Source of the DNA: Streptacidiphilus melanogenes
GTDB taxonomy: Bacteria; Actinomycetota; Actinomycetes; Streptomycetales; Streptomycetaceae
Assembly: GCF_000787835.1 (NCBI RefSeq)
Contig: NZ_BBPP01000025.1
Coordinates: 1 to 64,000 of the forward strand
DNA: 64,000 nt
Reading direction: 5' to 3'
Position numbers and translations under genes: made by a program. This document shows positions 8,952 to 26,206 of the stretch, in pieces. The notes under the pieces are model-generated. The model searched no databases. It saw nothing but the letters and a program-made list of their open reading frames with translations, and was not told where the DNA came from. Each line of letters opens with the position of its first letter. Positions within the stretch are counted from its first letter, which is position 1.

Positions 8952-10382
8952 TCACTGATTCGCGAGAATCTGGTTGGCCTGGGTCTCGGCGGTGGACAGC
9001 ACCTGGTCCAGGTTGGCGTTGGGGTCGGTCATCGCCGCCGACATCGCCGTGTCCAGGACCTTGTACAGCTGCTGCGCCGCCGGGGGCTCGTTGACGCTGC
9101 TGGTCGGGTTGTCGACGTAGGGGCCGTAGTTGGACAGCGGCAGGTTGCCGTTGGTCTTCAGCGAGGACGTGATCTGGCTGATCTGCGGCGAGTTCGAGGC
9201 CCAGAAGTAGGGCTCCGGGATGGCGATCGCCACCGGGTCCTTGCTGGAGGCGGCGAGCGTCGCGGCCCGCGCGAAGTTGAACTGGCCCGCGTCGGGCGTC
9301 AGGTACTCGAAGTCGATCCAGGCGATCTCGGCCTTGATCTGGTTCGGGGTCTGGCCCTTCTTGAAGTAGTAGAGGTCGCCGCCGCCGAGGCTGTTGCCGG
9401 GGCCGGTGGCGCCGGGCATCGGGCCGAGGCCGAAGGCGTTCTTGTCCGCGCCGAGCACCTCGATCAGGTGCTTGACCACGTCCGGGGCGCCGATGAACAT
9501 GCCGACCTTGCCGGTGGCGAGCGGTGGGAAGGCGTCGGCCCACTGGGTGACCGGCGTGGCGCCGATGCTGTGGTCGACGAACCGCATGTCGTGCAGGCGC
9601 TGCAGGACCTGCTTGCCCTGCGGGGAGTTGAAGGCGGCCTTGGTGCCGTCCGCGTTCACCATCTGGCCGCCGAGGCTGTAGAGCTCGGAGGTGAAGTGCC
9701 AGCCGCCGGTGTTGCCGCCGCTGTAGTCCTCGTAGCCGGTGATGCCGTTGCCGAGCGCGGCGATCTTCTTGGCGTCGGCCTGGAGCTCGTCCCAGGTGGT
9801 CGGCGGCTGGTCGGGGTTGAGGCCGGCCTTCTTGAACAGGTCGCGGTTGTAGACGAGACCGGTGGAGTAGTAGTTGATCGGCAGCGCGTAGGTCTTGCCG
9901 TTCGCGCCGAGGTTCTGCTTGACGCTCGGCAGCATGGTCGAGTAGCCGGGCACCGTCTGGTCGTTGACGTAGGCGCTGATGTCGGCGGCGTCACCGGAGT
10001 TGAGCGTCTGCTCCTGGTCGGTGAAGTACGCGTGGTACGCGCCGGTCTCGTCGTGGGCCTTGTACTCGGCGGTCTGCTGCGCGGGCACCTCGCACTGGCC
10101 CACGTAGGGCTTCGCGTCGACGGTGACGTTGGGGTACTTGACCTTGAACAGCGCGAGGTCGTCGGCGTAGTTGGCCTTGCCCGCCGCCTGGTCGGCGCCG
10201 GGCGCGCAGTCGATGGAGATGGTGACGGTGGCGTTCGGGTCGAGCGGCTTGCCGTCGGCCACTCCGCCGGCGGCGTTGCCGCTGCCCCCGGACGAGCCGC
10301 CGCTGCCGCAGGCGGCGGTTCCGAGACACAAACCTGCCGCGAGAGCGATGGCGGCGAACGTGCGCGATCTGTTCAGCATCAT
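8952..10382 (-). CDS. Sugar-binding lipoprotein, family 1 extracellular solute-binding protein
   Basis: The product is 476 residues, starting at either of two adjacent ATGs. The signal ends in a lipobox (GTAAC, Cys ~25) followed by a Gly/Ser linker, so the protein is anchored on the outer face of the membrane. The body has the family 1 SBP features: NVTVDAKPYVGQCEVPAQ, YALPINYYSTGLVYNRDLFK and PTTWDELQADAKKIA. It delivers oligosaccharides to the MalF/MalG-like pair. The flanking GH87 and GH13 genes point to alpha-gluco-oligosaccharides, plausibly nigerose-type, as ligands. It is the first gene of the minus-strand unit and is transcribed divergently from the LacI-type regulator. Confidence 0.88.
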   Translation of the reverse strand: MMLNRSRTFAAIALAAGLCLGTAACGSGGSSGGSGNAAGGVADGKPLDPNATVTISIDCAPGADQAAGKANYADDLALFKVKYPNVTVDAKPYVGQCEVPAQQTAEYKAHDETGAYHAYFTDQEQTLNSGDAADISAYVNDQTVPGYSTMLPSVKQNLGANGKTYALPINYYSTGLVYNRDLFKKAGLNPDQPPTTWDELQADAKKIAALGNGITGYEDYSGGNTGGWHFTSELYSLGGQMVNADGTKAAFNSPQGKQVLQRLHDMRFVDHSIGATPVTQWADAFPPLATGKVGMFIGAPDVVKHLIEVLGADKNAFGLGPMPGATGPGNSLGGGDLYYFKKGQTPNQIKAEIAWIDFEYLTPDAGQFNFARAATLAASSKDPVAIAIPEPYFWASNSPQISQITSSLKTNGNLPLSNYGPYVDNPTSSVNEPPAAQQLYKVLDTAMSAAMTDPNANLDQVLSTAETQANQILANQ

Positions 10383-10457: not shown

Positions 10458-10632
10458 TTACGCAAGAGGTCGACGCAAAATTGAAAAGTCACGACTGCGC
10501 TTCGATGTGGCATGACCGCCACGGGAGCTCGCGGCCACCTACAAGAGCCACAGCATGGCCTTGAGCTGGAGTTTTGCGGAGCGCAAACTGAATCTTGCAA
10601 TCGCTTGCCGGATCCTGCTCTACTCTTGCGCC
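10458..10632. promoter_or_regulatory. Divergent control region with TTGCG/CGCAA operator half-sites
   Basis: The region between the binding-protein gene and the LacI-type regulator carries several TTGCG-like elements. CGCAA occurs at 10461-10465 and CGCAAAA at 10474-10480, which read as two TTGCG direct repeats towards the binding-protein gene. A palindrome TTTGCG-GAG-CGCAAA lies at 10573-10587, and CTTGCAA, CTTGCC and CTTGCGCC run from 10594 to 10631. Alpha-glucan regulators of Streptomyces (MalR/AglR type) recognise related TTGCA-containing repeats, so autoregulation plus control of the importer is likely. No clear -10/-35 pair was assigned. Confidence 0.5.
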
Positions 10633-11637
10633 ATGAAGAGCAGACTCGCCGAGGTGGCACAGAAGGTCGGAGTCAGCGAGGCCACGGTCAGCCGCGTGCT
10701 CAACGGGCGGCCCGGCGTCTCCGAGGGCACGCGCAACGCAGTCCTGGCCGCGCTCGACGTGCTCGGCTACGAGCGCCCCAGTCAGCTGCGCGGCGAGCGC
10801 GCCCGGCTGATCGGCCTGGTCCTGCCGGAGCTGCAGAACCCGATCTTCCCGGCGGTGGCCGAGGTCGTCGGCGGCGCGCTGGCCCAGCGGGGCTTCACCC
10901 CCGTCCTGTGCACCCGCACCGCGGGCGGCCTCTCCGAGGCCGACTACGTCAACATGCTGCTCGACCAGCAGGTTTCCGGTGTGGTCTTCGCCGGTGGCCA
11001 CTTCGCCGAGGCCGACGCCCCCCACGAGCACTACACGCGCCTGCGCGACCGGGGCATCCCCGTCGTACTGTTCAACGCCGCCGTCGAGCACCTCGGCTTC
11101 CCCCAGGTCTCGACGGACGACACCGTCGCCGTCGAGCAGGCCTTCGCCCACCTCGCCGCACTCGGCCACGAACGCATCGGCATGATCGTCGGCCCTGAGG
11201 ACCACATCCCCTCGCAGCGCAAGCTCGCCTCCTTCGCCGCGCAGTGCGCCCGCGCCGGCCGCGAGGCCCTGCCGGACCAGGTCGCCCACGCCCTCTTCGC
11301 CCTCGAAGGCGGCCACGCGGCGGCCAGCCGCATGCTGCGCGCGGGCGTCACCGGCATCATCTGCGGCAGCGACCCCCTCGCCCTCGGCGCGATCCGCGCG
11401 GCCCGACGCGCGGGCCTGTCCGTCCCTGGCGACGTCTCCGTGGTGGGCTTCGACGACTCGGCCTTCATGAACTGCACGGAACCGCCGCTGACGACGGTCC
11501 GTCAGCCGATCGAAGCACTCGGCCGTGCGGCCGTCGCGCTGCTGGTCAACCAGATCGAGGGCGCGACGGTGGCGGCGGAGGAGCTCCTGTTCGAACCCGA
11601 GCTGGTGGTCCGCGGCTCGACCGGGCCGGCCCGCTAG
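10633..11637 (+). CDS. LacI/GalR-family transcriptional regulator
   Basis: The product is 334 residues from the ATG at 10633, which begins directly at the helix-turn-helix (SRLAEVAQKVGVSEATVSRV, then LNGRPGVSEGTR); the upstream open frame has no HTH homology. Residues ~60-334 are a periplasmic-binding-protein-like sensor (LIGLVLPELQNPIFPAVAE; GDVSVVGFDDSAFM). Members repress sugar genes until an oligosaccharide binds. It is divergent from the importer unit and runs in the same direction as the large GH87 gene 163 nt downstream, so it is placed to control both arms of the alpha-1,3-glucan locus. Confidence 0.9.
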   Translation: MKSRLAEVAQKVGVSEATVSRVLNGRPGVSEGTRNAVLAALDVLGYERPSQLRGERARLIGLVLPELQNPIFPAVAEVVGGALAQRGFTPVLCTRTAGGLSEADYVNMLLDQQVSGVVFAGGHFAEADAPHEHYTRLRDRGIPVVLFNAAVEHLGFPQVSTDDTVAVEQAFAHLAALGHERIGMIVGPEDHIPSQRKLASFAAQCARAGREALPDQVAHALFALEGGHAAASRMLRAGVTGIICGSDPLALGAIRAARRAGLSVPGDVSVVGFDDSAFMNCTEPPLTTVRQPIEALGRAAVALLVNQIEGATVAAEELLFEPELVVRGSTGPAR

Positions 11638-11800: not shown

Positions 11801-14800
11801 ATGAACCACGCAAGAACGCGCGCGCCGGCGCTGCTCGCCGTGCTCGCCACGCTCTTCGCACTGCTGCTCGGCACAGCCCTCGCTCCCGCCCACGCCGCGG
11901 GAAGCAACCTGGCCGCGGGCAGGAGCGCCAGCGCCTCCAGCGCCAACGGCCAGTACGTCGCCGCGAACCTCAACGACGGCGACCAGTCCAGCTACTGGGA
12001 GAGCGCCAACGGCGCCTTCCCGCAGTGGGCCCAGATCGACCTCGGCTCGGCGACGAGCATCGGCCAGGTCGTGCTGAAGCTCCCGAGCGGGTGGGGTGCC
12101 CGGACCCAGACGCTCAGCGTCCAGGGCAGCACCGACGGAAGCACCTTCGCGACGATCGTCGCGTCGTCGACCTACACCTTCGACCCCGGCACCGGAAACA
12201 CCGTCACCATCAACTTCGGTGCGACGAGCACCCGCTACGTGCGGGTCAACGTCACCGCGAACAGCGGCTGGAGCGCCGCCCAGCTCTCCGAGTTCGAGAT
12301 CTACGGCAGCTCAACCGCGTCCACGAACCTCGCCCTCGGCAAGACCATGAGCGACTCCGGACACACCCAGAACTACGTCGCCTCCAACGCGAACGACGGT
12401 GACGCGTCGACCTACTGGGAGTCCACCGACAATGCCTTCCCGCAGTGGCTGCAGGTCGACCTCGGCGCGTCCGTCGCGGTCGACCAGGTCGTGCTGAAGC
12501 TGCCGCCCTCCACCTCGTGGGGTGCGCGCACCCAGACGCTCGCCGTCCAGGGCAGCACGGACGGCAGCAGTTTCAGTGACCTCGCCGCCTCCGCCGGCTA
12601 CACCTTCGATCCCGCCACCGGGAACACGGTGACCATCAACTTCAGCCAGGCGACCACGCGTTACGTGCGGCTGAAGATCACCGCCAACACCGCCTGGCCC
12701 GCCGGCCAGATCTCCGAGTTCGCGGTCTACGGCCCCTCCGGCGCCGCGCAGCCGCCCGCCGCGCCCACCAATCTGGCCTACTCGCAGAACGCCGCCGGGG
12801 CCGTGACGCTCACCTGGACGGTGTCCACGAGCAGCGGCGTGACGGCGTACGACGTCTACGCGAACAACACGCTCCTGACCTCCGTCCCGTCCACGGCGAC
12901 GACCTACACCGACAATCCGCCGACCACCTCCACCGTCACCTACTTCGTCCGCGCCCGCGACGCGGCGGGCGACCAGTCGGCGAACAGCAACAGCGTGACC
13001 CGGACCGGCGCGTCGGCCACGCCGCCCACCGCGCCGAGCAACCTCGCGTACACCCAACCGGCCTCCGGGCAGGTCGCGTTGACCTGGTCTGCCGCCTCCG
13101 ACCAGGTCGGGGTCACCGGATACGACATCTACCGCAACGGCAGCAGGCTCGCCTCCGTGAGCGGTTCGACGCTGACCTACACCGACTCCGTCGCCGACAC
13201 CCTGACCGTCTCCTACGACGTGACGGCCACCGACGCCGCGGGGCTCGAATCCGCCGCGTCGAACACGGTCACCCGGACCGGGTCCGGCGGAACCTCCACC
13301 GATCTGGCCCTGCACAAGCCGATCGACGGCACGGCGTACACGTACACCTACGCGCCCGCCAACGCGAACGACGGCGACGTCACCACCTACTTCGAAGGAT
13401 CCTCCTACCCCTCGCAGCTGACGGTGCATCTGGGGGCCAACGCCGACCTGTCCTCCGTCGTGGTCAAGCTCAACCCGGCCTCGGCGTGGTCGGCGCGCAC
13501 GCAGACGATCGCGGTGCTGGGGCGTGAGCAGAGCTCCTCGACGTTCACCACACTGGTGGCCGCCACGTCGTACTCCTTCGATCCGAGCGGCAACCAGAAC
13601 ACCGTCACCATCCCCGTCTCCGGCCGGGTCGCGGACGTGGAGCTCTCGGTCACGTCCAATAGCGGCGCGCCCGGCGGTCAGGTGGCCGAGCTCGAGGTCT
13701 ACGGCACCCCGGCGCCGAACCCGGACCTGACGGTGTCCTCCAGCTCGTGGTCGCCGTCCGCGCCGGTGGAGACGGACTCGGTCACCGCGTCCGCCGTGGT
13801 GAAGAACGGCGGCACCGCGGCCTCGGTCGCGACCGACGTCGGCTTCTATCTGGGCACCACCAAGGTCGGCTCGGCCACCGTCGGCGCGCTCGCGCCCGGC
13901 GCGACCCAGACGGTCTCCGCGAACATCGGCACGCAGAGCGCCGGAAGCTACCAACTGACCACCAAGGTCGACGAGTCGAAGAAGAACTTCAACCTGACCG
14001 CAGACCAGAGCTACACGAACCCGGCCAACCTCACGGTCGCCCCGGTCCAGTCCGCCGACCTGGTCGGCACGCTCTCCTGGACGCCGAGCAACCCGGCCGC
14101 GGGCAACACGGTCAACTTCACCGCCACGGTGAAGAACCAGGGCACGATCGCGACCACGAGCGGCAGCCACGGCCTCACGCTCACGCTGCTGGACGCGACG
14201 GGCACGACCGTCACCACCCTCACCGGCTCGGTCAGCGGCTCGATCGCGCCCGGGGCCACAACGTCGCCGATCAGCCTCGGCTCGTGGACGGCGGTCAACG
14301 GCAAGTACACCGCGCACCTGGTGCTCGCCGCCGACGCGAACGAGCTGCCGGTCAAGCAGCCGCATCTGACCAGCGACACCCCCTTCTTCGTCGGCCAGGG
14401 CGCCAACATGCCCTACGACTCCTACAAGTCCACCGCCGGCGTCCTCGGCGGCGCGGCCGCGATCGTCGGCCCGAACCGCACCGTCGGCGACATCGCCGGT
14501 GAGGCCACCGGGCGCGAGGCGGTGACCCTGGACACCACCGGCGACTCGGTCAGTTGGACCTCGCGCGAGGCGACGGACACCTTCGTGCTGCGCTACTCCA
14601 TCCCCGACGCCCCGGGCGGCGGCGGCACCAACGCGACCCTGGACCTGTACGCGAACGGCAAGCTGGTCCAGCCGCTCAACCTCACCTCCCACTACGCCTG
14701 GCTCTACGGCTCGGAGACCAGCCCCGGCGACAGCCCGAGCGCCGGCTCGCCGCGCCACATCTACGACGAGTCCAGCTTCCTGCTCGCGCAGTCGTATCCG

Positions 14801-16087
14801 CAGGGCACGGTCTTCACGCTGCAGAAGGACGCGTCCAACTCCTCCCAGTACGCGATCGACTTCATGAACCTGGAGCAGACCTCCCCCACCGCCGACCCCG
14901 ACCCGACCCACCTGGTGGTACCCGGCGGCTTCACCCAGACCGACGTCCAGAACGCCCTCGACAAGGTGCGAATGGACACCACCGGCACCTGGACCGGCGT
15001 GTACCTGCCCGCCGGCCAGTACGCGATCACCGGTCGGCTCCAGGTCTACGGCAAGCCGGTCAAGGTCGTCGGCGCGGGCGTCTGGTACAGCCAGTTCGTG
15101 GCGCCACAGAACCAGACCGACACGGACACCGGCTGGGACCTCCAGACCGGCGCCGGCGGCTCGACGTTCACCGGTTTCGCCTGGTTCGGCAACTACACCA
15201 CCCGCCAGGACGGCCCCGGCCACACCTGGGACCTGCGGAACATGTCGAACATCACGATCGACAACGTCTGGATCGAGCACAACGTGGTCGGCGTCTGGGG
15301 CGCCTCCAACGTGCAGAACTCCACCTTCACCAACATGCGCATCCGCGACACCATGGCGGACGGCATCAACCTCACCAACGGCAGCCAGGGCAACCTGATC
15401 TCCAACGACGAGGCACGCAGCACCGGCGACGACAGCTTCGCCCTCTTCGCGGCCCAGGACCAGAACCCGGGCGGCAAGCTGGAGAACAACACCATCCAGA
15501 ACGTCACGGCGATGACGCCGTGGCGCGCGGCGGGCGTCGCGGTCTACGGCGGTGGCGGCAACACGATCCAGAACTTCACCGTGTCCGACACCCTGTGCTA
15601 CTCGGGCCTGACCATCTCCTCGCTCAACTTCGGCTACGCCTTCGAGGGTTTCGAGTCGTCACCGCAGACGGTCGTCAAGAACTTCTCGTTGACCCGGGAC
15701 GGCGGCCACTTCTGGGGCCAGCAGGTCTTCCCGGCCCTCTGGGCCTTCTCGGCGACCCAGCCGTTCCAGGGCATCCGCGTCAGCGACGCGACCATCACCG
15801 ATCCCACCTACAGCGGCATCATGTTCCAGACCGACTACTCGGGAGGCAGCGCCCTCGACCCCGTCACCGACACGGTCTTCACCAACACCACGATCACCGG
15901 CGCGCACGCCGACAACGACGCCTACGGCACGGGCAGGTCCGGCTACGGCATCTGGGCCAACCCCCTGCCGGAATCCGGCCAGGGCCCGGCGGTCGGCTCG
16001 GTGACCTTCAACCACCTGGTGGAGAACAACGACGACGTCAACATCCAGAACACGACGTCGACGTTCACCATCACCGTGAATCCGTAG
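11801..16087 (+). CDS. Large secreted multidomain GH87 alpha-1,3-glucanase
   Basis: The product is 1428 residues, with GAGGG before the ATG and a signal peptide ending near residue 32. In order: discoidin-type (F5/8) modules ~34-170 and ~174-313, fibronectin type III modules ~318-405 and ~408-495, a third discoidin-like module ~500-637, two CARDB-like Ig modules ~640-747 and ~750-865, then the GH87 region ~870-1428. The catalytic beta-helix carries MADGIN (D1187) and TGDD (D1210, D1211), with the same 23/24 spacing as the first enzyme. Discoidin and FN3 modules in Paenibacillus alpha-1,3-glucanases bind insoluble mutan, so this enzyme probably attacks insoluble fungal or plaque glucan while the smaller one acts on soluble chains (inference). 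Confidence 0.85.
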   Translation: MNHARTRAPALLAVLATLFALLLGTALAPAHAAGSNLAAGRSASASSANGQYVAANLNDGDQSSYWESANGAFPQWAQIDLGSATSIGQVVLKLPSGWGARTQTLSVQGSTDGSTFATIVASSTYTFDPGTGNTVTINFGATSTRYVRVNVTANSGWSAAQLSEFEIYGSSTASTNLALGKTMSDSGHTQNYVASNANDGDASTYWESTDNAFPQWLQVDLGASVAVDQVVLKLPPSTSWGARTQTLAVQGSTDGSSFSDLAASAGYTFDPATGNTVTINFSQATTRYVRLKITANTAWPAGQISEFAVYGPSGAAQPPAAPTNLAYSQNAAGAVTLTWTVSTSSGVTAYDVYANNTLLTSVPSTATTYTDNPPTTSTVTYFVRARDAAGDQSANSNSVTRTGASATPPTAPSNLAYTQPASGQVALTWSAASDQVGVTGYDIYRNGSRLASVSGSTLTYTDSVADTLTVSYDVTATDAAGLESAASNTVTRTGSGGTSTDLALHKPIDGTAYTYTYAPANANDGDVTTYFEGSSYPSQLTVHLGANADLSSVVVKLNPASAWSARTQTIAVLGREQSSSTFTTLVAATSYSFDPSGNQNTVTIPVSGRVADVELSVTSNSGAPGGQVAELEVYGTPAPNPDLTVSSSSWSPSAPVETDSVTASAVVKNGGTAASVATDVGFYLGTTKVGSATVGALAPGATQTVSANIGTQSAGSYQLTTKVDESKKNFNLTADQSYTNPANLTVAPVQSADLVGTLSWTPSNPAAGNTVNFTATVKNQGTIATTSGSHGLTLTLLDATGTTVTTLTGSVSGSIAPGATTSPISLGSWTAVNGKYTAHLVLAADANELPVKQPHLTSDTPFFVGQGANMPYDSYKSTAGVLGGAAAIVGPNRTVGDIAGEATGREAVTLDTTGDSVSWTSREATDTFVLRYSIPDAPGGGGTNATLDLYANGKLVQPLNLTSHYAWLYGSETSPGDSPSAGSPRHIYDESSFLLAQSYPQGTVFTLQKDASNSSQYAIDFMNLEQTSPTADPDPTHLVVPGGFTQTDVQNALDKVRMDTTGTWTGVYLPAGQYAITGRLQVYGKPVKVVGAGVWYSQFVAPQNQTDTDTGWDLQTGAGGSTFTGFAWFGNYTTRQDGPGHTWDLRNMSNITIDNVWIEHNVVGVWGASNVQNSTFTNMRIRDTMADGINLTNGSQGNLISNDEARSTGDDSFALFAAQDQNPGGKLENNTIQNVTAMTPWRAAGVAVYGGGGNTIQNFTVSDTLCYSGLTISSLNFGYAFEGFESSPQTVVKNFSLTRDGGHFWGQQVFPALWAFSATQPFQGIRVSDATITDPTYSGIMFQTDYSGGSALDPVTDTVFTNTTITGAHADNDAYGTGRSGYGIWANPLPESGQGPAVGSVTFNHLVENNDDVNIQNTTSTFTITVNP

Positions 16088-16984: not shown

Positions 16985-18178
16985 TCAGCCCGCGCTGGTC
17001 GCGTGGCGTTCGAAGACCGCCGCCTGGGCGACGCGAAGGGCGGAGGCGATGGCGCCGAGGAGGACCGCGTCGTCGCCGAGGGTGCTCGGGGCGACCTCCG
17101 GGCGGAGCGGGGTCATCCGGGCGAGGGCGTCGCGGACGGGATCGAGGAGCAGGTCCGCGCTGTGGCCGACGCCGCCGCCGAGGACGACGAGGTCGGGGTC
17201 GAGAACGGCGGTGACCGCGGCGACGACGAGGGCGAGGCGCTCGCCCTCGCGGGCCACGGCCTCCTGGGCCCGCGGGTCGCCCGCGCGGGCCGCGTCGAAG
17301 ACGTCCTTCGCCGTCGGGGCGTCGCGCAGGCCGAGCTCACGGGCGGTGCGCACGATGGCGTCGGCCGCGACCGCGTCCTCCAGCGTGCCGCGTCTGCCCG
17401 CGGCGGCCGTGGCGGCGTCCGGCGAGGTGAGCGAGAGCGGCAGGAAGCCGATCTCCCCGGCCGCGCCGTGCGCGCCGGTGAAGAGTTCGCCGTCGGCGAC
17501 GACGCCCATGCCGAGGCCGGTGCCGACGAGGACGTAGACGAAGAGGCGGCTGTCCTGGCCCGCGCCGAAGGCGTACTCGCCGAGGGCGGCGAGGTTGGCG
17601 TCGTTGTGGAGGGACAGCTCGGGGCCGCCGAGTTGCGCGCGCAGCTGCTGGACCAGGCCGGCCCTGCCCCAGCCGGGCAGGTTGACGGCGTAGCGCACCC
17701 GGCCCGATCCGGCGTCGAAGACGCCGGGGGTGCCGACGGCGGCGTGGACGACCTGGTCGGCGCCGACGCCGGCCTCCGCGAGGGCGCGCTTCGTCGCCGC
17801 GGCGACCGCGTCGGCCACGGCGTCGGCCGTCTCGCCCTCGTTGGGGACGTCGACGCGGGCCTGGATGCGGCCCGCGAGATCGGCGACGGCGATGCGCAGC
17901 CGGGCGCGGCCGATGTCGACGCCGAGGACGTAGCCGGCGGTGGGGTCCGGCTCGTAGAGCACGGCGCTGCGCCCGCGCTCGGGGACGATCGTGCCGACCT
18001 CGCGCACCAGGCCGCCCTGTTCCAGCGCAGCCAGCGCGCTGGAGACCGTCGGCTTGGACAGGCCGGTGTCGCGCGCGAGTTGGGCGCGGCTCGCGGCGCC
18101 GACGGTGCGCAGGTGTTCGAGCAGCAGCAGCTCGTTGTTGCTGCGCAGTCGCGTGCGGCTCCAGGGTTGCTCGTCCAC
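16985..18178 (-). CDS. ROK-family transcriptional repressor
   Basis: The product is 397 residues. A winged helix occupies residues ~15-75 (RAQLARDTGLSKPTVSSALA), followed by a ROK domain (GVDIGRARLRIAV; HNDANLAALGEYAFG; YVLVGTGLGMGV; GAAGEIGFLPL). Such proteins bind operators upstream of sugar genes and release them on binding a sugar or phosphosugar. Oddly, the zinc-binding CxCGxxGC segment of ROK proteins is replaced by AAAGRRGTLED, so all three cysteines are gone; the fold must be stabilised differently. It is divergent from the permease-kinase-SIS unit and a palindrome lies in between (18265-18284), so it most likely controls that unit. Confidence 0.88.
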   Translation of the reverse strand: MDEQPWSRTRLRSNNELLLLEHLRTVGAASRAQLARDTGLSKPTVSSALAALEQGGLVREVGTIVPERGRSAVLYEPDPTAGYVLGVDIGRARLRIAVADLAGRIQARVDVPNEGETADAVADAVAAATKRALAEAGVGADQVVHAAVGTPGVFDAGSGRVRYAVNLPGWGRAGLVQQLRAQLGGPELSLHNDANLAALGEYAFGAGQDSRLFVYVLVGTGLGMGVVADGELFTGAHGAAGEIGFLPLSLTSPDAATAAAGRRGTLEDAVAADAIVRTARELGLRDAPTAKDVFDAARAGDPRAQEAVAREGERLALVVAAVTAVLDPDLVVLGGGVGHSADLLLDPVRDALARMTPLRPEVAPSTLGDDAVLLGAIASALRVAQAAVFERHATSAG

Positions 18179-18264
18179 GGGCTCCAGCTTCTCGGGTGGT
18201 TCAGCCTCGGTCGTCGGCCCTCAACTCTAGACAACTGTGATCGCCCGGAGGCTTGACGGCACTA

Positions 18265-18284
18265 GTAAAGGAATTTAACTTTAC
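18265..18284. promoter_or_regulatory. Inverted-repeat operator between ROK repressor and permease
   Basis: GTAAAG (18265-18270) and CTTTAC (18279-18284) are perfect inverted arms around an AT-rich 8-nt centre. This is the only markedly AT-rich spot in the intergenic region, and its outer bases resemble the operator before the GH9 gene. Divergent placement suggests binding by the adjacent ROK repressor. Confidence 0.55.
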
Positions 18285-18325
18285 AAGCCCCACCCCACTC
18301 TCGCAGCTCCCCACGGAGGCCCCCG

Positions 18326-19801
18326 ATGTCCGACCCGGCCGGATCGCCCGGACTGTCCAGAAAGGTCGGCCTGTTCCAGGCGACCGCCATCAACATGAGT
18401 CAGATGTGCGGGATCGGGCCGTTCGTCACGATCCCGCTCATGGTCGCCGCCTTCGGCGGGCCGCAGGCCGTCATCGGCTGGATCGCGGGCGCGATCCTCG
18501 CCCTGGCCGACGGCCTGATCTGGGCCGAGCTCGGCGCCTCGCTCCCGGGCTCCGGAGGCACCTACGTCTACCTGCGCGAGGCGTTCCAGTACCGCAGCGG
18601 CAAGCTGATGCCGTTCCTGTTCGTCTGGACCGCCATGCTCTTCATCCCGCTGATCATGTCGACCGGCGTCCAGGGCCTGGTGCAGTACCTCGGCTACCTG
18701 TTCCCGAAGCTCACCACGGGGCAGGGCGACATCGTCGGCGTCGGCGTGGTGGCGCTGGTCGTGCTGCTGCTCTGGCGCAAGATCGAGAACATCGGCAAGG
18801 TCACCGTCGTGATGTGGGCGGTCATGATCGTCTCGGTCGCCGCCGTCATCCTGGCCTCGTTCACGCACTTCCACCCGTCGCTGGCCTTCACCTGGCCCGC
18901 ACACGCGATCCAGCTCACCCACGGCGCGTTCTGGATCGGCTTCGCCTCGGGTCTGACCATCGGCATCTACGACTACCTCGGCTACAACACCACCGCCTAC
19001 ATGGGCGCCGAGGTGAAGAACCCGGGACGGGTCCTGCCGCGCTCCATCATCTGGTCCATCGTCGCCATCATGGCGATCTACCTGCTGCTGCAGATCGGCG
19101 TCCTCGGCGTGATCCGCTGGCAGGACATGCTCGACCCGAACAACGTCGCCTCCCAGTCGGTCGCCTCCGCCGTGCTGGAGAAGACCTTCGGCAAGACCAC
19201 CGCCGACGTGGTCACCTGGCTGATCCTCATCACCGCCTTCGCCTCCGTCTTCACCGGTCTGCTCGGCGGCTCCCGGGTGCCCTACGACGCCGCGCGCGAC
19301 CAGGTCTTCTTCAAGTCCTTCGCCAAGCTGCACCCCAAGCACAACTTCCCGGTCCTCGGCCTGCTCAGCATGGGTGCCATCACCGCGGCCGGCTTCCTCT
19401 TCGCCCGGCACATCGGCAACACCGCCACGCACCCGCCGCTCGGCATCCTGATCACCCTGCTCACCACCGTGATGGTGATCATCCAGGCGCTCGCCCAGAT
19501 CGCCGCCGTCACCGTGCTGCGCAAGCGTCAGCCGAACCTGGCCCGCCCGTACAAGATGTTCCTCTACCCGCTGCCCAGCGTCGTCGCGGGCATCGGCTGG
19601 CTGGTCATCTACGGCTACGCGGACAAGGCCAACCCGGGCGTGCACCCCATCGAGTGGTCCCTCGGCTGGGTCGCCCTCGGCGTCGTCGCCTACCTGATCT
19701 GGTCCCGCGTGGAGAAGGTCTGGCCCTTCGGCGAGAAGCAGATCCGCGAGCAGTTCCTCGCCGACCAGCAGGCCGCCGAACTCGCCGGTTCCGCCACCTG
19801 A
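18326..19801 (+). CDS. APC-superfamily permease
   Basis: The product is 491 residues with about twelve membrane helices. The first helix carries the APC motif INMSQMCGIGPFVTIPLMVA and later parts fit the amino acid-polyamine-organocation family (GASLPGSGGTYVYLREAFQY; SRVPYDAARDQVFF). The ATG at 18326 follows GGAGGCC. APC permeases carry amino acids and amines, yet the next two genes are a sugar kinase and a SIS sugar-phosphate enzyme. The best-known precedent for that mix is FrlA, the fructoselysine permease of E. coli. Hence the cargo may be an amino acid-sugar conjugate or amino sugar (inference). Confidence 0.85.
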   Translation: MSDPAGSPGLSRKVGLFQATAINMSQMCGIGPFVTIPLMVAAFGGPQAVIGWIAGAILALADGLIWAELGASLPGSGGTYVYLREAFQYRSGKLMPFLFVWTAMLFIPLIMSTGVQGLVQYLGYLFPKLTTGQGDIVGVGVVALVVLLLWRKIENIGKVTVVMWAVMIVSVAAVILASFTHFHPSLAFTWPAHAIQLTHGAFWIGFASGLTIGIYDYLGYNTTAYMGAEVKNPGRVLPRSIIWSIVAIMAIYLLLQIGVLGVIRWQDMLDPNNVASQSVASAVLEKTFGKTTADVVTWLILITAFASVFTGLLGGSRVPYDAARDQVFFKSFAKLHPKHNFPVLGLLSMGAITAAGFLFARHIGNTATHPPLGILITLLTTVMVIIQALAQIAAVTVLRKRQPNLARPYKMFLYPLPSVVAGIGWLVIYGYADKANPGVHPIEWSLGWVALGVVAYLIWSRVEKVWPFGEKQIREQFLADQQAAELAGSAT

Positions 19802-19880
19802 TCCACCGAACCACCGAACCCGCGGGCCGGCCGGGGCACGCCTTCCCGCCCCGGCCGGCCCGCACCCGAGGAACACCCTG

Positions 19881-20969
19881 ATGCCCGTGACGCCGCAGGA
19901 CCCCCCACCGCTTCCCCACCCCTACGAGACCTCCGACCGCACCCACACCTCCGACCGCACCGAAAGCCCCGACGCGGCGCCGTCCGACGACGGCGCTGCC
20001 GACGAGGCGCCGCGCACGGTCATCGGCATCGACTTCGGCGGCACCAAGACCGAGCTCGCCCTCGCGGACGCCCGCGGCCGCCTGCTCGCCCGCGAGCGCC
20101 TCGACACCCTTGCCGAACACGGTCCCGACCAGACCTTCGCCCGCACCGCCGAGGCCGCCCGACGCCTGGCCCGCGTGTCGCGCGAGTGCCACGGCACGAC
20201 CGTCTCCGCCTACGCGGCCGTCGCACCGGGCATCGTCCAGGCCGACCGGATCCTGCTCACCCCCAACCTCCCCGGCTGGGAGAAGCTCGCCCTGTCGGCG
20301 CGCCTCGCCCAGGAGTTGGACACCCCCTCGGTCGCCGTCGCCAACGACGTGCGGGCGGGCGCGCTCGCCGAGCTGCGCTTCGGCGCGCTGCGCGACGCGG
20401 ACCCGGGCCTCTACGTGAGCCTCGGCACCGGCATCGCGGCCGCGCTGACCGTCGGCGGCGGGGTGCTCGCCGGTGCGCACCAGGCCGCCGGGGAGATCGG
20501 CTACGTCAACCCCGGTGGCGCGCCCGTGGACGCCGTCGCGTCCGGACACGCGCCGCTGGAGGAGTTCGTCGGCGGCAAGGGCCTCGGAGAACGGGCCGCC
20601 GAACTGCTGGGTCGCAGCGTCAGCGCCGCCGAGCTGTTCCGCAGCCCCGATCCGGCGGCCCGCGAGCTGGTCGAGCACACACTGACCGTGCTGGCCGTCA
20701 CCCTCGCCAACCTCTCCGCCTTCGCCGACCCGGCACGGATCGTGCTGGGCGGCGGCATGATGGCCGCCGCCGAGGTGATCCTGCCGACCCTGGAGCGCCT
20801 GATCGGGGGCGCCACCCCGTTCCCGCCCGAGCTGCGGCCCGCCCGTTTCCTCCGTGACGCCTCGCTGCACGGCGCGGTCACGCTCGCCCTCGACAGCCTG
20901 CACCAGCGTCGCCGCCCCGACGGCGGCAGCCGTCCGCGTCCCACCGCACCCCTGGGAGCCCTTCGATGA
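19881..20969 (+). CDS. ROK-family sugar kinase (possible amino sugar or Amadori-sugar kinase)
   Basis: The product is 362 residues. A ~44-residue acidic, low-complexity N-terminal tail containing a TSDRT direct repeat precedes the ATP-binding motif GIDFGGTKTELAL at 49-61. Further ROK signatures are NDVRAGALAELRFG, SLGTGIAAAL and HQAAGEIGYVN; the zinc cysteines of classical glucokinase/NagK are missing here too (VNPGGAPVDAVAS). It phosphorylates a hexose or amino hexose with ATP in the cytoplasm. The start is supported by GAGGAA upstream. Its stop overlaps the start of the SIS gene (ATGA), so the two enzymes are made together and probably act in sequence. Confidence 0.85.
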   Translation: MPVTPQDPPPLPHPYETSDRTHTSDRTESPDAAPSDDGAADEAPRTVIGIDFGGTKTELALADARGRLLARERLDTLAEHGPDQTFARTAEAARRLARVSRECHGTTVSAYAAVAPGIVQADRILLTPNLPGWEKLALSARLAQELDTPSVAVANDVRAGALAELRFGALRDADPGLYVSLGTGIAAALTVGGGVLAGAHQAAGEIGYVNPGGAPVDAVASGHAPLEEFVGGKGLGERAAELLGRSVSAAELFRSPDPAARELVEHTLTVLAVTLANLSAFADPARIVLGGGMMAAAEVILPTLERLIGGATPFPPELRPARFLRDASLHGAVTLALDSLHQRRRPDGGSRPRPTAPLGALR

Positions 20970-22024
20970 CGACCACCCAGCTCGCCGCCGCCCCGGGCGC
21001 GCGCATGGAGGCCGAGATGCGCCAGCAGCCGGAGGTGCTGGCCGCGCTCGTCGAGCGCTGGCCCGCGCTGACCGCCCAGGTCGCCGCCCTGACCGACGGC
21101 GTGCCGCCGCTCGGCGTCGCCTTCCTCGCCCGCGGCTCCTCCGACCACGCGGCCCTCCTCGGCCGCTACGCGGTGGAGCTCGGGACGGGCCTGCCGACCT
21201 GCCTGGTCGCGCCGAGCGTGGCCACCGCCTACGGCAGGGTGCCCGAGGGCTTCCGGGGCTGGCTGCTGGTCGCGCTCTCGCAGTCCGGCCGCACGCCGGA
21301 GATCGTCGACCTGGCCCACCGCTACGCCGCCGCGGGCGCGCGGGTGATCGCGGTGACCAACGACGGCGGATCGGCTCTGGCGGACGCGGCCCACCTGTCC
21401 ATCGCCCTGGAGGCGGGGCCCGAGGTCGCGGTCCCGGCCACGAAGACCGTCACCGGGCAGCTGCTCGCCGTGCTGGCCGTCGCAAGCGGGCTCGCCCCCG
21501 AGGGGCCCGGCGGGCTGACACGGACGCAGGCAGGCGAGCTCCCACAGGCGGTGGCGCGGGTGCTCGCGGACGCGGAGGGCGCGGAGCGCGCCGCGCGGTT
21601 GCTCGCCGAGCACGACCGGCTGGCGGTCGTCGGGCGGGGCGCCTGCTATCCGGCGGCGCTGGAAAGCGCGTTGAAGCTCCAGGAGACCACCGGCCTGATG
21701 GCGCACGGCTTCTCCACGGCGGACTTCCGCCACGGACCGATAGCCGTCTGCGGCCCGGACGCCCCCGCGCTCCTCCTCGCGGGCTCGGGCCCGGCGGACG
21801 CCGACACCCTCGACCTCCGCTCCACGCTGGCAGCCCGTCGCGCCCCGACCCTGCTGGCCGGCGTCGAGCCCGAGGCGGACCTGTCCTGGCCCGCGCTCGG
21901 ACACCTCGGCGAGTGCGTTCCGGCCACCGTCCGCGGCCAGCAGCTGGCCCTGGCGACCGCGCGGCGCCTCGGTATCGACCCGGACCAGCCGGCCGGCCTG
22001 AACAAGGTGACCATGACCAACTGA
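20966..22024 (+). CDS. SIS-domain sugar-phosphate deaminase/deglycase (GlmS-isomerase-like)
   Basis: The product is 352 residues made of two SIS domains, as in the isomerase half of GlmS: FLARGSSDHAALLGRYAVE, VALSQSGRTPEIVDLA (phosphosugar-binding Ser loop), PATKTVTGQLLA, and in the second half LAVVGRGACYPAALESALKL and HGPIAV. Relatives remove ammonia from glucosamine-6-P (NagB-II), act on galactosamine-6-P (AgaS) or deglycate fructoselysine-6-P (FrlB). There is no glutaminase domain, so it is not GlmS itself. Overlapping translation with the ROK kinase indicates that it consumes the kinase product. Which of the three reactions applies cannot be read from the sequence alone. Confidence 0.85.
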   Translation: MTTTQLAAAPGARMEAEMRQQPEVLAALVERWPALTAQVAALTDGVPPLGVAFLARGSSDHAALLGRYAVELGTGLPTCLVAPSVATAYGRVPEGFRGWLLVALSQSGRTPEIVDLAHRYAAAGARVIAVTNDGGSALADAAHLSIALEAGPEVAVPATKTVTGQLLAVLAVASGLAPEGPGGLTRTQAGELPQAVARVLADAEGAERAARLLAEHDRLAVVGRGACYPAALESALKLQETTGLMAHGFSTADFRHGPIAVCGPDAPALLLAGSGPADADTLDLRSTLAARRAPTLLAGVEPEADLSWPALGHLGECVPATVRGQQLALATARRLGIDPDQPAGLNKVTMTN

Positions 22025-23750: not shown

Positions 23751-24941
23751 TTGACCGCTCGTCCCCTGCTCCGCCGTCCGCTGCTCGCCGGGGCGCTCGC
23801 CCTGGCGGTGGCGGGCGGCGCCCTCGGCGTCACGCTCGCGCTCGACGGCTCCGCCGAGGCCGGACCGGCGACGCTCGCCGTCACCGTCGACAAGCACGCC
23901 TGCGGCGCGCCGCCGGCGCGGCTCCCCGCCGGGCCCGTCGACTTCGAGGTGCGCGACGGCGCGGCCACTTTCGTCAGCGTCTACGTCACCGACCCCACCG
24001 GAGCCCGCGCCTACGCCGAGATCCGCTGGCTCGGCCCCAACCACGCGCTGCCCCTGTCCGCCTCGCTGGCCGCAGGGCGGTACGCGCTGCGTTGCGTCTT
24101 CTCCGACGGCCCGGTGCTGACCTCGTCCACCGTCGTCGTCAGCGGCTCCGCGACGGACACGGAGACCGGATACCCGCCGATGGCCAGCCAGGAGCTGGAG
24201 CAGCCGGTCACCGCCTACCGCGCCTACGTCGCGGCCGCGCTGCCGCACCTGCTGGACGCGGCGCGCACCCTCGACACCGATGTCGCCCGCGGGAACCTCG
24301 GAGCCGCGCGGACGGACTGGCTGCCGGCGCACCTGGCCTACGAGCGGCTCGGCGCCGCGTACAACTCCTTCGGCGACTTCGACGGCGACATCGACGGTCG
24401 CCCCGACGGCCTTCCCGGCGGCGCGGACGATCCCGGCTGGACGGGCTTCCTCGCGATCGAGCACGCCCTGTGGCACGGCGCCCCCGCCGACAAGGTCCGC
24501 CCGCTGACGCGGAAGCTGGTCACCGACGTCAACGGGCTGATCGCCGACTTCCCCAGTGAGGACATCGACTCCGAGGACCTGCCGCTGCGGGCGCACGAGA
24601 TCCTGGAGAACGCCCTCCAGTTCCAGCTCACCGGCCAGGAGGACCAGGGCTCCGGCACGACGCTGGCCACGCTCGACGCCAACGCGCAGGGCACCGTGGA
24701 GGTGGTGTCGCTGCTCGCCCCGCTGGTGCGCGACCGCGACCCCGGGCTCGTCGAGACCCTCGACCAGGGCCTCGCCACGCTGCGCGGCCAACTCGCCGCT
24801 GCCCATGGCAGCGCCGCGGATTGGCCCGCGGCCTCCTCGCTCGACCGGACCACGCGCGAGCGCCTCGACGGTGTGCTGGGCGCGCTGCTGGAGCAGCTCG
24901 CCGCCCTCCCCAACCTGCTCAGCCCGCGGAACGGAGCCTGA
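23751..24941 (+). CDS. efeO: EfeO-type iron uptake protein (cupredoxin plus imelysin/M75 domain)
   Basis: The product is 396 residues starting at a TTG 3 nt after the phosphoesterase stop; no separate RBS is visible, so translational coupling is likely. After a signal anchor (~1-32) come a cupredoxin-like domain (~40-130) and a peptidase-M75/imelysin domain (~140-396; AYRAYVAAALPHLLDAARTL, VTDVNGLIADF). EfeO works outside the membrane with EfeB and the EfeU permease in ferrous iron uptake. In the metal-binding HxxE motif the expected His is Leu (GFLAIE: L234, E237), with a His right after (H238); this is an odd site that might alter metal binding. No efeU gene is adjacent. Confidence 0.82.
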   Translation: MTARPLLRRPLLAGALALAVAGGALGVTLALDGSAEAGPATLAVTVDKHACGAPPARLPAGPVDFEVRDGAATFVSVYVTDPTGARAYAEIRWLGPNHALPLSASLAAGRYALRCVFSDGPVLTSSTVVVSGSATDTETGYPPMASQELEQPVTAYRAYVAAALPHLLDAARTLDTDVARGNLGAARTDWLPAHLAYERLGAAYNSFGDFDGDIDGRPDGLPGGADDPGWTGFLAIEHALWHGAPADKVRPLTRKLVTDVNGLIADFPSEDIDSEDLPLRAHEILENALQFQLTGQEDQGSGTTLATLDANAQGTVEVVSLLAPLVRDRDPGLVETLDQGLATLRGQLAAAHGSAADWPAASSLDRTTRERLDGVLGALLEQLAALPNLLSPRNGA

Positions 24942-24943
24942 CC

Positions 24944-26206
24944 ATGAGCGACCCTCAGCTCTCCCTCGGGCGCCGCGGCTTCCTGCAACGGGCGACGGCG
25001 GGCATGGTCGGCGCGGCGGCGCTGGGCGCGACGGCGGCGGACTCCGCCCGCGCGGCCTCCTCGTCGGCGTCGGTCTCCTCGTCCGGCTCGGGGCGGGTCA
25101 TCCCGTTCGAGGGTCCGCACCAGTCCGGCATCCTCACCCCGCCGCAGGCGGCCGCGAGCTTCGTCTCCTTCGACGTGATCGCCCCCGACCGGGCGGCGCT
25201 GCGGGAGCTCTTCGCCGTACTGACCGACCGCGTCCGCCTTCTGACCGCGGGCGGCTCGGTCGCGGCCACCGACCTGGCCTCCGCGCCCGCCGACAGCGGC
25301 ACGCTCGGGCCGGTGCTGCCCGCGGACGGACTGACCGTCACCGTCGGCGTCGGGGCGTCCCTCTTCGACGAGCAGCGCTACGGCCTCGCCTCGCGGCGAC
25401 CCGCCAAGCTGACGGCCATGCCGGTCTTCCCGGACGACGACATGGCCCACTCGACCGAGCTGCACGGCGACCTCTCCCTGCAACTGTGCGCGGACTCGCG
25501 CGACACCGTCGCCCACGCACTGCGGGACATCGCCAAGCACACCCGTGGCGCGATCCAGGCCCGCTGGAAGATCGACGGCACCCACTCGGCCCCCCGCCCG
25601 AGCGGCACCCCGCGCAACCACCTCGGCTTCAAGGACGGCATCGCCAACCCCGACACCACCAGCGGCGCCGTCACCGACGCCTTGGTGTGGACCCACGGCG
25701 GCCGCGACGGCGAGCCCGCGTGGACGGAGGGCGGCTCCTACCAGGTGATCCGCATCATCCGGATGCTCGTCGAGTTCTGGGACCGCGTCTCCCTGGACGA
25801 GCAGGAACGCATGATCGGCCGCCGCCGTGACTCCGGCGCGCCCCTGGACGGCTCCGCCGAGACCGACATCCCCGGCTACAAGGCGGACCCCGCAGGCCTG
25901 TTCACCCCCATGGACGCCCACATCCGCCTGGCCAACCCGCGCACCCCGGCCACCGCCTCCCAGCAGATCCTGCGCCGCGGCTACAACTACGAACGCGGCC
26001 TCGACACCGACGGCAACCTCGACCTCGGCCTCGTCTTCTGCTGCTACCAGCAGGACGTCTCCCGCCAGTTCGCCGCCGTCCAGTCCCGCCTCGCGGGCGA
26101 ACCCCTGGTCGACTACGTCTCCCCCACCGGCGGCGGCTACTTCTTCGCCCTCCCGGGCGTCCGCAACCCCCACGACACCTTCGCCTCCGGCCTGCTGGCC
26201 GAGTAG
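24944..26206 (+). CDS. efeB: EfeB-type Dyp peroxidase, Tat-exported
   Basis: The product is 420 residues, 2 nt after the efeO stop, with GGAGCC before the ATG. A Tat signal (RRGFLQRATAGMVGAAALGA) exports the folded haem protein. The Dyp GxxDG motif is GFKDG with catalytic D231, and the proximal haem ligand is H326 in MDAHIRLANPR. EfeB oxidises ferrous iron or draws iron from haem as part of EfeUOB. The operon here is phosphoesterase-efeO-efeB. Confidence 0.9.
   Translation: MSDPQLSLGRRGFLQRATAGMVGAAALGATAADSARAASSSASVSSSGSGRVIPFEGPHQSGILTPPQAAASFVSFDVIAPDRAALRELFAVLTDRVRLLTAGGSVAATDLASAPADSGTLGPVLPADGLTVTVGVGASLFDEQRYGLASRRPAKLTAMPVFPDDDMAHSTELHGDLSLQLCADSRDTVAHALRDIAKHTRGAIQARWKIDGTHSAPRPSGTPRNHLGFKDGIANPDTTSGAVTDALVWTHGGRDGEPAWTEGGSYQVIRIIRMLVEFWDRVSLDEQERMIGRRRDSGAPLDGSAETDIPGYKADPAGLFTPMDAHIRLANPRTPATASQQILRRGYNYERGLDTDGNLDLGLVFCCYQQDVSRQFAAVQSRLAGEPLVDYVSPTGGGYFFALPGVRNPHDTFASGLLAE

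Follow-up and report, generated by a model that had tools for sequence, protein, structure and literature searches.

A conserved cassette of an APC permease, a ROK kinase and a NagB-II-branch SIS protein in Streptacidiphilus melanogenes, a candidate route for nitrogen-linked sugar conjugates

Two described systems close to the locus treated here join the uptake of a nitrogen-bearing sugar to phosphorylation and to a protein with a SIS domain. In Escherichia coli, the frlABCD locus contains an APC permease, a PfkB-type kinase (FrlD) and a SIS protein (FrlB). In gfrABCDEF of Salmonella, import and phosphorylation are performed by a phosphotransferase system, and SIS deglycases convert glucoselysine 6-phosphate and fructoselysine 6-phosphate to fructose 6-phosphate or glucose 6-phosphate and lysine, according to PMC12675984, in which the text and a figure legend swap the GfrE/GfrF assignment relative to each other. 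We describe a four-gene cassette in the first 64,000 nucleotides of contig NZ_BBPP01000025.1 (assembly GCF_000787835.1; 8.77 Mb in 107 contigs) of Streptacidiphilus melanogenes, which are referred to as the window. As the leading of several possibilities, though not quite a probable one, we tentatively propose from the sequence that the cassette is dedicated to the catabolism of an N-linked conjugate of a sugar with an amino acid or amine, in which a kinase would act at C6 and a SIS enzyme would cleave the sugar-nitrogen bond. The four genes are as follows, with the basis of each assignment in brackets.

16985 to 18178, minus strand: ROK-family transcriptional repressor with a helix-turn-helix and a ROK domain (open reading frame, Pfam, motif reading).
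18326 to 19801, plus strand: APC-superfamily permease, 491 residues (open reading frame, Pfam, NCBIfam).
19881 to 20969, plus strand: ROK-family sugar kinase, 362 residues as annotated (open reading frame, Pfam, motif alignment).
20966 to 22024, plus strand: SIS-domain protein of the NagB-II/GlmS-isomerase branch, 352 residues (open reading frame, family scores, tree, residues, fold).

The original prediction, made from the letters of the window, had named these four genes; their open reading frames fall exactly at the stated limits, and their identities are backed by Pfam. The repressor matches PF00480 with 176.1 bits and has helix-turn-helix matches of the MarR/IclR type, the permease matches PF13520 with 155.9 bits, which places it in the APC superfamily, and the kinase and SIS protein match PF00480 with 125.6 bits and PF01380 with 100.3 bits, respectively. 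The permease, kinase and SIS genes are co-directional and the repressor gene is divergent from them. The predicted overlap of the kinase stop with the SIS gene is read directly in the DNA, where TGA and ATG share the ATGA at 20966-20969. About 45 residues precede the ROK domain of the kinase; because the domain begins at residue 47, the true start of the kinase may lie downstream.

Family scores, the tree, residues and the fold all place the SIS protein in the NagB-II/GlmS branch and not in that of FrlB. Against the NCBIfam models, it scores 167.3 bits for NagB-II (NF046059, NagB_SO3506), which is below the cut-off of 430, about 140 bits for GlmS, and 30.9 bits for FrlB (NF008481) against a cut-off of 430, so that it falls outside the FrlB family. 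In a sequence search of the PDB, the NagB-II protein 8EOL gives 139.7 bits versus 25.4 bits for Bacillus 3EUA, a putative fructose-amino acid-6-phosphate deglycase. A tree of the SIS protein against FrlB, AgaS, NagB-II and GfrF was among the checks named by the original prediction, which would have counted as its refutation a grouping with NagB-II together with a kinase acting only on glucosamine or GlcNAc. In the tree of 78 rows the SIS protein groups on the NagB-II/GlmS side, the first half of that condition. It lies there in a clade of 48 rows, consisting of actinobacterial rows and one Dormibacterota row, with a support of 99 in the Shimodaira-Hasegawa-like approximate likelihood ratio test (SH-aLRT); four NagB-II and nagA-linked reference proteins fall outside this clade. 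The trees of the SIS protein and the kinase are quick searches with SH-aLRT support and no bootstrap. The exact place of E. coli FrlB and AgaS is unsure because their branches are very long, and the branch assignment therefore rests also on the scores and residues.

The residues compared are key residues of GlmS. S303, S347, Q348, S349 and T352 are kept as S59, S105, Q106, S107 and T110, and E481, K485, E488, H504 and K603 as E233, K237, E240, H256 and K347. In a distant alignment, FrlB lacks the equivalents of Q348, K485 and K603, while E488 and H504 are common to FrlB. S401 is replaced by Ala, which the NagB-II references also have, and A602 by Asn. At the position of E495 the SIS protein has His. 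All 14 rows of the Streptacidiphilus-Nocardia branch share this His, and seven distinct rows (L066-L072) have either His or Gln; L085 and L169, both with the four-gene layout, have Glu and Leu there, respectively. The AlphaFold model of the SIS protein, with a mean pLDDT (predicted local distance difference test) of 92.4, has Z scores of 41.8 with 7KQA, 41.4 with human GFAT-1 and 40.1 with the NagB-II structure 8FDB; two other Shewanella chains give Z 36 over fewer residues. FrlB (8GLR) and FraB give 30.5 and 27.8. The NagB-II, GlmS and GFAT rows thus span Z 36-42, versus 28-31 for the FrlB and FraB rows. The claim that the SIS protein is an FrlB-like deglycase was therefore contradicted by the scores of 167 versus 31 bits, the tree, the residues and the fold.

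Compared with the NagB-II proteins of Shewanella denitrificans (8EOL/8FDB) and Stenotrophomonas (7KQA), the cassette protein has a SIS fold matching over nearly the full length, an identity of 32-33% and the same key residues, that is, a SIS fold with the GlmS/NagB-II residue set. It differs from them in that it has no nagA neighbor, scores below the family cut-off, falls in its own 48-row clade and has His at the position of GlmS E495. NagS, described in PMC12680351 as an N-acetylglucosamine-6-phosphate (GlcNAc-6P) dehydratase of Streptomycetaceae that is related to MurQ and encoded adjacent to dmdR1, is likewise a SIS-domain enzyme of amino-sugar metabolism. It was set aside as the identity of the SIS protein for its MurQ kinship and dmdR1 synteny; the MurQ-type profile scores 26 bits here.

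Changes are also found in the sugar motifs of the two ROK proteins. According to PMC5458393, ExGH is a sugar-recognition contact of ROK proteins, which also carry a zinc motif; NanK of F. nucleatum has no zinc motif and keeps the His, and in PDB 4HTL a Tyr takes the place of that His and the loop contains no Cys. 4HTL was deposited as a beta-glucoside kinase. In the cassette kinase, the DxGGT motif (IGIDFGGTKT) and the catalytic Asp (ND, in VANDV) are present, the ExGH position reads GEIGY, and the zinc motif CxCGxxGCx(E/D) is absent. The same Tyr and the same loss of the zinc motif are found in 27 of 27 SIS-linked kinases, a count that excludes the kinase of L057, a locus cut by a contig end; the kinase of L169 is alike. 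In the repressor, the ExGH position reads E-I-G-F and the Cys motif for zinc is absent. Among 26 ROK regulators, 24 from SIS loci together with those of L165 and L176, the His of ExGH is kept in none, and the zinc motif is kept in none of the 25 that are readable. The motif changes in both proteins suggest that both may read a sugar altered near C1 or C2. Some kinase relatives outside the SIS clade lie near genes of oligopeptide-type (SBP_bac_5) or other ATP-binding cassette (ABC) transporters, which is suggestive only.

The genome of S. melanogenes already holds amino-sugar genes on other contigs. A NagB scoring over its cut-off and a NagA were found there, so the SIS gene of the cassette is not linked to nagA, and ordinary deamination of glucosamine 6-phosphate (GlcN6P) can do without the cassette. 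A ROK gene lies just before this nagA, with matches 62 bases apart, and keeps both ExGH and the zinc motif; it is presumably NagK. The presence of NagB and NagA elsewhere and the loss of the kinase and repressor motifs lean against a kinase acting only on glucosamine or GlcNAc, and thus against either plain sugar as the obvious substrate.

To describe the spread of the cassette, contigs were scanned for SIS relatives, and the best 80 of 210 were analyzed, a sample leaning to close relatives. Neighbors were called in open frames by phmmer at E 1e-8 with the best query per frame, and L009/L038, L010/L070 and L012/L076 were counted once each. The neighbor counts are minima, as several loci stop at contig ends. 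The nearest SIS relatives, with 88-90% identity, are from Streptacidiphilus. The permease type of the cassette (APC_A), the ROK kinase and the SIS protein are encoded in the same order in 11 of the 80 loci (L056, L058, L059, L061-L065, L080, L085 and L118) from Streptacidiphilus, Streptantibioticus, Streptomyces, Nocardia and Yinghuangia, and the divergent repressor is matched in ten of these, the exception being L062. The four-gene layout is also present in genomes G361 (L038) and G093 (L169). The order kept in these loci indicates that the grouping of the genes is more than chance. In G361 (L009/L038), the SIS match starts at query residue 45 and the preceding frame is unlike the N-terminus, so a frameshift or another start is possible.

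Other layouts occur around the same SIS family. In five loci (L067-L071), the repressor, ROK kinase and SIS genes are accompanied by a sugar-type binding protein and an ABC permease, then by a YhfX-like pyridoxal phosphate (PLP) protein and an ABC ATPase, and after these by an APC permease of another type and a phosphotriesterase-like protein; the variant in L072 lacks an APC match. Three Embleya loci (L078, L081 and L141) have the repressor, an APC permease, a YhfX-like protein, the kinase and the SIS protein together, with the order unclear in L141. SIS relatives in L076 and L079 lie beside an FGGY kinase and a member of a GSAM-like aminotransferase cluster, to which L076 adds a LysA-like decarboxylase and L079 an APC permease. 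Counted over the 46 distinct clade loci, at least 23 contain an APC permease, at least 13 a YhfX-like PLP protein and at least two (L092 and L093) nagA. A sugar kinase and a SIS protein with an amino-acid-type carrier or a PLP enzyme are thus a recurring theme in the clade. Several host names in the clade hint at acid habitats, namely Streptacidiphilus, Nocardia acidivorans, Pseudonocardia acidicola and Actinospica acidithermotolerans.

Between the repressor and permease genes, the following promoter-like elements were found.

18253 to 18258, plus strand: -35-like hexamer TTGACG, read by eye in an alignment of 13 sequences.
18264 to 18285, plus strand: putative operator-like 22-bp inverted repeat AGTAAAGGAATTTAACTTTACA, lying across the inferred spacer and -10 element.
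18276 to 18281, plus strand: weak -10-like hexamer TAACTT, inferred, 17 bases after the -35-like hexamer.

TTGAC starts 11 bases ahead of the operator-like site in 11 of the 13 sequences; in L060 the offset is 12 bases and in L062 it is 13. A sigma-70 promoter scan returned no promoter at its threshold, and the conservation of TTGAC was read by eye. The repeat AGTAAAGGAATTTAACTTTACA has one match in the window versus none in 100 shuffles, and at up to three mismatches the cassette site is the only match in the 8.77-Mb genome (control, 0). It was matched in all 12 genomes chosen for holding the cassette or part of it. In nine of them the site has at most one mismatch and lies upstream of cassette-type genes, and L062 has it at three mismatches. 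Two of the 12 genomes, G757 and G763 (L057), have matches only at three mismatches, a single one in G763, and G756 has two additional sites at three mismatches. In L060 the site lies upstream of the kinase gene. A search at up to five mismatches did not find it in L067-L071 or in L169. Reading the substrate from co-regulated genes was tried and abandoned, as the genome-wide search at up to three mismatches returned the cassette alone. The overlap with the inferred promoter is the position expected for a repressor, and the ROK repressor is predicted to bind this inverted repeat in the divergent promoter.

We infer the substrate, the direction of transport, the enzyme activities and the repression as follows. 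The permease would import a nitrogen-bearing sugar, most likely one joined through nitrogen to an amino acid or amine, or failing that a free amino sugar of an unusual kind. Its C6 hydroxyl would be phosphorylated by the atypical ROK kinase, and the NagB-II-type SIS enzyme would open and isomerize the phosphosugar and break its C-N bond. The predicted products are a hexose 6-phosphate, which would enter glycolysis, and the nitrogen part as a free amino acid, an amine or ammonia. With NagB-II-type chemistry at C2, a free 2-amino sugar would yield a ketose 6-phosphate and ammonia, and a 2-N-substituted one a ketose 6-phosphate and the amino compound; the latter cleavage is proposed for glucoselysine 6-phosphate in Salmonella in PMC12675984. 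Since this SIS branch works at C2 (GlcN6P to fructose 6-phosphate), the conjugate is predicted to be of the Heyns type, glucoselysine-like with nitrogen on C2, and not fructoselysine. The ROK repressor would shut the single promoter through the 22-bp inverted repeat until the sugar or its phosphate arrives. A more specific version is possible, though rather doubtful: an independently assembled route in which a zinc-less ExGY ROK kinase and a NagB-II-derived SIS enzyme cleave N-substituted (Heyns-type) glucosamine 6-phosphates to fructose 6-phosphate and an amino acid under their own ROK repressor, with an evolutionary tie to the orphan yhf genes.

A close rival, and one that is quite possible, is the import of a free amino sugar, glucosamine or another 2-amino sugar, followed by 6-phosphorylation by the ROK kinase and by a true NagB-II deaminase giving a ketose 6-phosphate and ammonia. 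Three steps would be enough for glucosamine; the solved SIS proteins closest by sequence are NagB-II GlcN6P deaminases, with GFAT/GlmS tied by fold, and the GlmS/NagB-II residue set is kept. The nagA genes near L092 and L093 and a NagB-I-type gene near the YhfX genes of L176 also suit this rival. However, the genome already encodes a canonical NagB and, next to a ROK gene, a NagA, the NagB_SO3506 score of 167 is far below its cut-off of 430, nagA lies near only two of the 46 clade loci (minima), and the canonical sugar-recognition motifs are absent from the kinase and the repressor. The Amadori route, in which a fructosyl-amino acid would be imported, phosphorylated at C6 and deglycated by an FrlB-like enzyme to glucose 6-phosphate and an amino acid, is unlikely. 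It can draw on FrlA, the annotated fructoselysine transporter, at about 100 bits from APC_A, on E488 and H504 shared with FrlB, and on the deposition of the zinc-less ExGY protein 4HTL as a kinase for beta-glucosides, that is, C1-substituted sugars, but the SIS protein is off the FrlB branch and keeps the K603, K485 and Q348 that FrlB lacks, the permease has 101.8 bits for the FrlA type (NF008466) against a cut-off of 800, and the kinase is not PfkB. An FrlC query had no match in the stretches with the APC_A layout. Pure isomerases exist among SIS proteins and APC proteins mostly carry amino acids, which would fit an aldose-ketose isomerase for a nitrogen-free phosphosugar beside a permease serving an unrelated amino acid need; this is very unlikely, as the order of permease, kinase and SIS is kept across distant genera under one conserved operator-like site and amino-acid-type PLP enzymes recur beside the SIS gene in the clade.

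The proposal of a dedicated cassette for an N-linked conjugate has to be set against several observations, which weigh against it. The closest characterized SIS enzymes are plain GlcN6P deaminases. The APC_A permease is not essential, since kinase and SIS genes occur without an adjacent APC_A in L060 and L066; at E 1e-30, the genomes holding L066 and L057 gave no APC_A match, and the one holding L060 gave C-terminal fragments only. Another 11 kinases that are not paired with this SIS protein include 10 with the ExGY/zinc-less signature (L173 keeps the His and the zinc motif), and the zinc motif is kept in 12 of the 19 ROK loci of the S. melanogenes genome and absent in seven, including the two of the cassette. 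Loss of the zinc motif alone is thus no proof of a new substrate, as F. nucleatum NanK also lacks it (PMC5458393). A search of the S. melanogenes genome for a YhfX-like protein gave no match, and genes of the YhfX type occur in other company. In L165, genes for the kinase, ABC proteins, YhfX and a phosphotriesterase occur with no SIS gene. L176 has an M20 hydrolase with ABC and YhfX genes and, about 830 bases on, the NagB-I-type gene, which scores under its family cut-offs and would suit a plain amino sugar. Four alphaproteobacterial plasmids (L179, L180, L182 and L184) carry a ROK regulator, an M20 hydrolase, ABC genes and YhfX, labeled there as 'alanine racemase', and no sugar kinase or SIS is annotated in these stretches.

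These observations also bear on the link to the yhf genes, which directly adjoin frlABCDR in E. coli K-12. Homologs of YhfX and Php of the E. coli set yhfSTU-php-yhfWX lie beside SIS relatives of the clade, although the cassette itself has no yhf gene and the yhf set has no annotated SIS or sugar kinase. The actinobacterial YhfX scores 235 bits against that of E. coli, and YhfX-like proteins are uncommon elsewhere, turning up at E 1e-20 in 4 of the 396 phylum genomes sampled. In two Aeromicrobium loci (L074:1627-9011 and L075:1624-9014), homologs of all six proteins, YhfU, YhfT, Php, YhfS, YhfX and YhfW, are followed by a clade SIS. A fifth alphaproteobacterial plasmid, in Rhizobium, has a SIS downstream, and a Fusobacteriota plasmid has a yhf-like set with no SIS annotated. 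Taken over these loci, the tie of YhfX to SIS is not obligatory. As no YhfX match turned up in the S. melanogenes genome, the yhf link bears on the SIS family and not on this cassette. In G089, of the same family as the source, L177:6780-13540 holds a YhfU-T-Php-S-X-W set with no SIS match in the stretch.

The cassette is probably not the known fructoselysine pathway. The original prediction had read it as frl logic with the kinase replaced; the resemblance, a single locus that combines an APC permease with a kinase and a SIS protein, stands, but membership does not, as the FrlB score, the PfkB fold of FrlD versus the ROK fold here, and the FrlA cut-off all fail. Its preference for a glycated amino acid over plain GlcNAc survives in part, in that the substrate may still be a sugar-amino acid conjugate, handled by a route that lacks detailed homology to FrlB/FrlD. 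The likeness to gfrABCDEF is one of chemistry: the deglycase described in PMC12675984 splits a phosphorylated sugar-lysine into a hexose 6-phosphate and lysine, as is proposed for the cassette. Among the matches listed in the literature searches, no title announces such a cassette, and among those on the E. coli yhf genes, many of which share letters only, no title or opening of an abstract announces a functional study; subscription journals are mostly uncovered in both.

If the proposal is true, soil actinobacteria would live on glycated amino compounds with enzymes not related in detail to Frl and Gfr of enteric bacteria, and a wider range of organisms would recycle Maillard-type products. 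The clade gives context for the uncharacterized yhf genes of E. coli, and because homologs of YhfX and Php travel with the SIS protein and kinase, one substrate screen could inform on both. Even with a free amino sugar as the substrate, the cassette would show an exit of NagB-II-like proteins from the GlcNAc pathway.

Other genes of the window were noted near the cassette. A protein of 1428 residues at 11801-16087 has alpha-1,3-glucanase catalytic domains and F5/8 type C domains, and it is adjoined by a LacI-type regulator (10555-11637) and, on the opposite strand, an SBP_bac_1 binding protein (8952-10382). The open reading frame at 24821-26206 clusters with a DyP-type peroxidase of L066.

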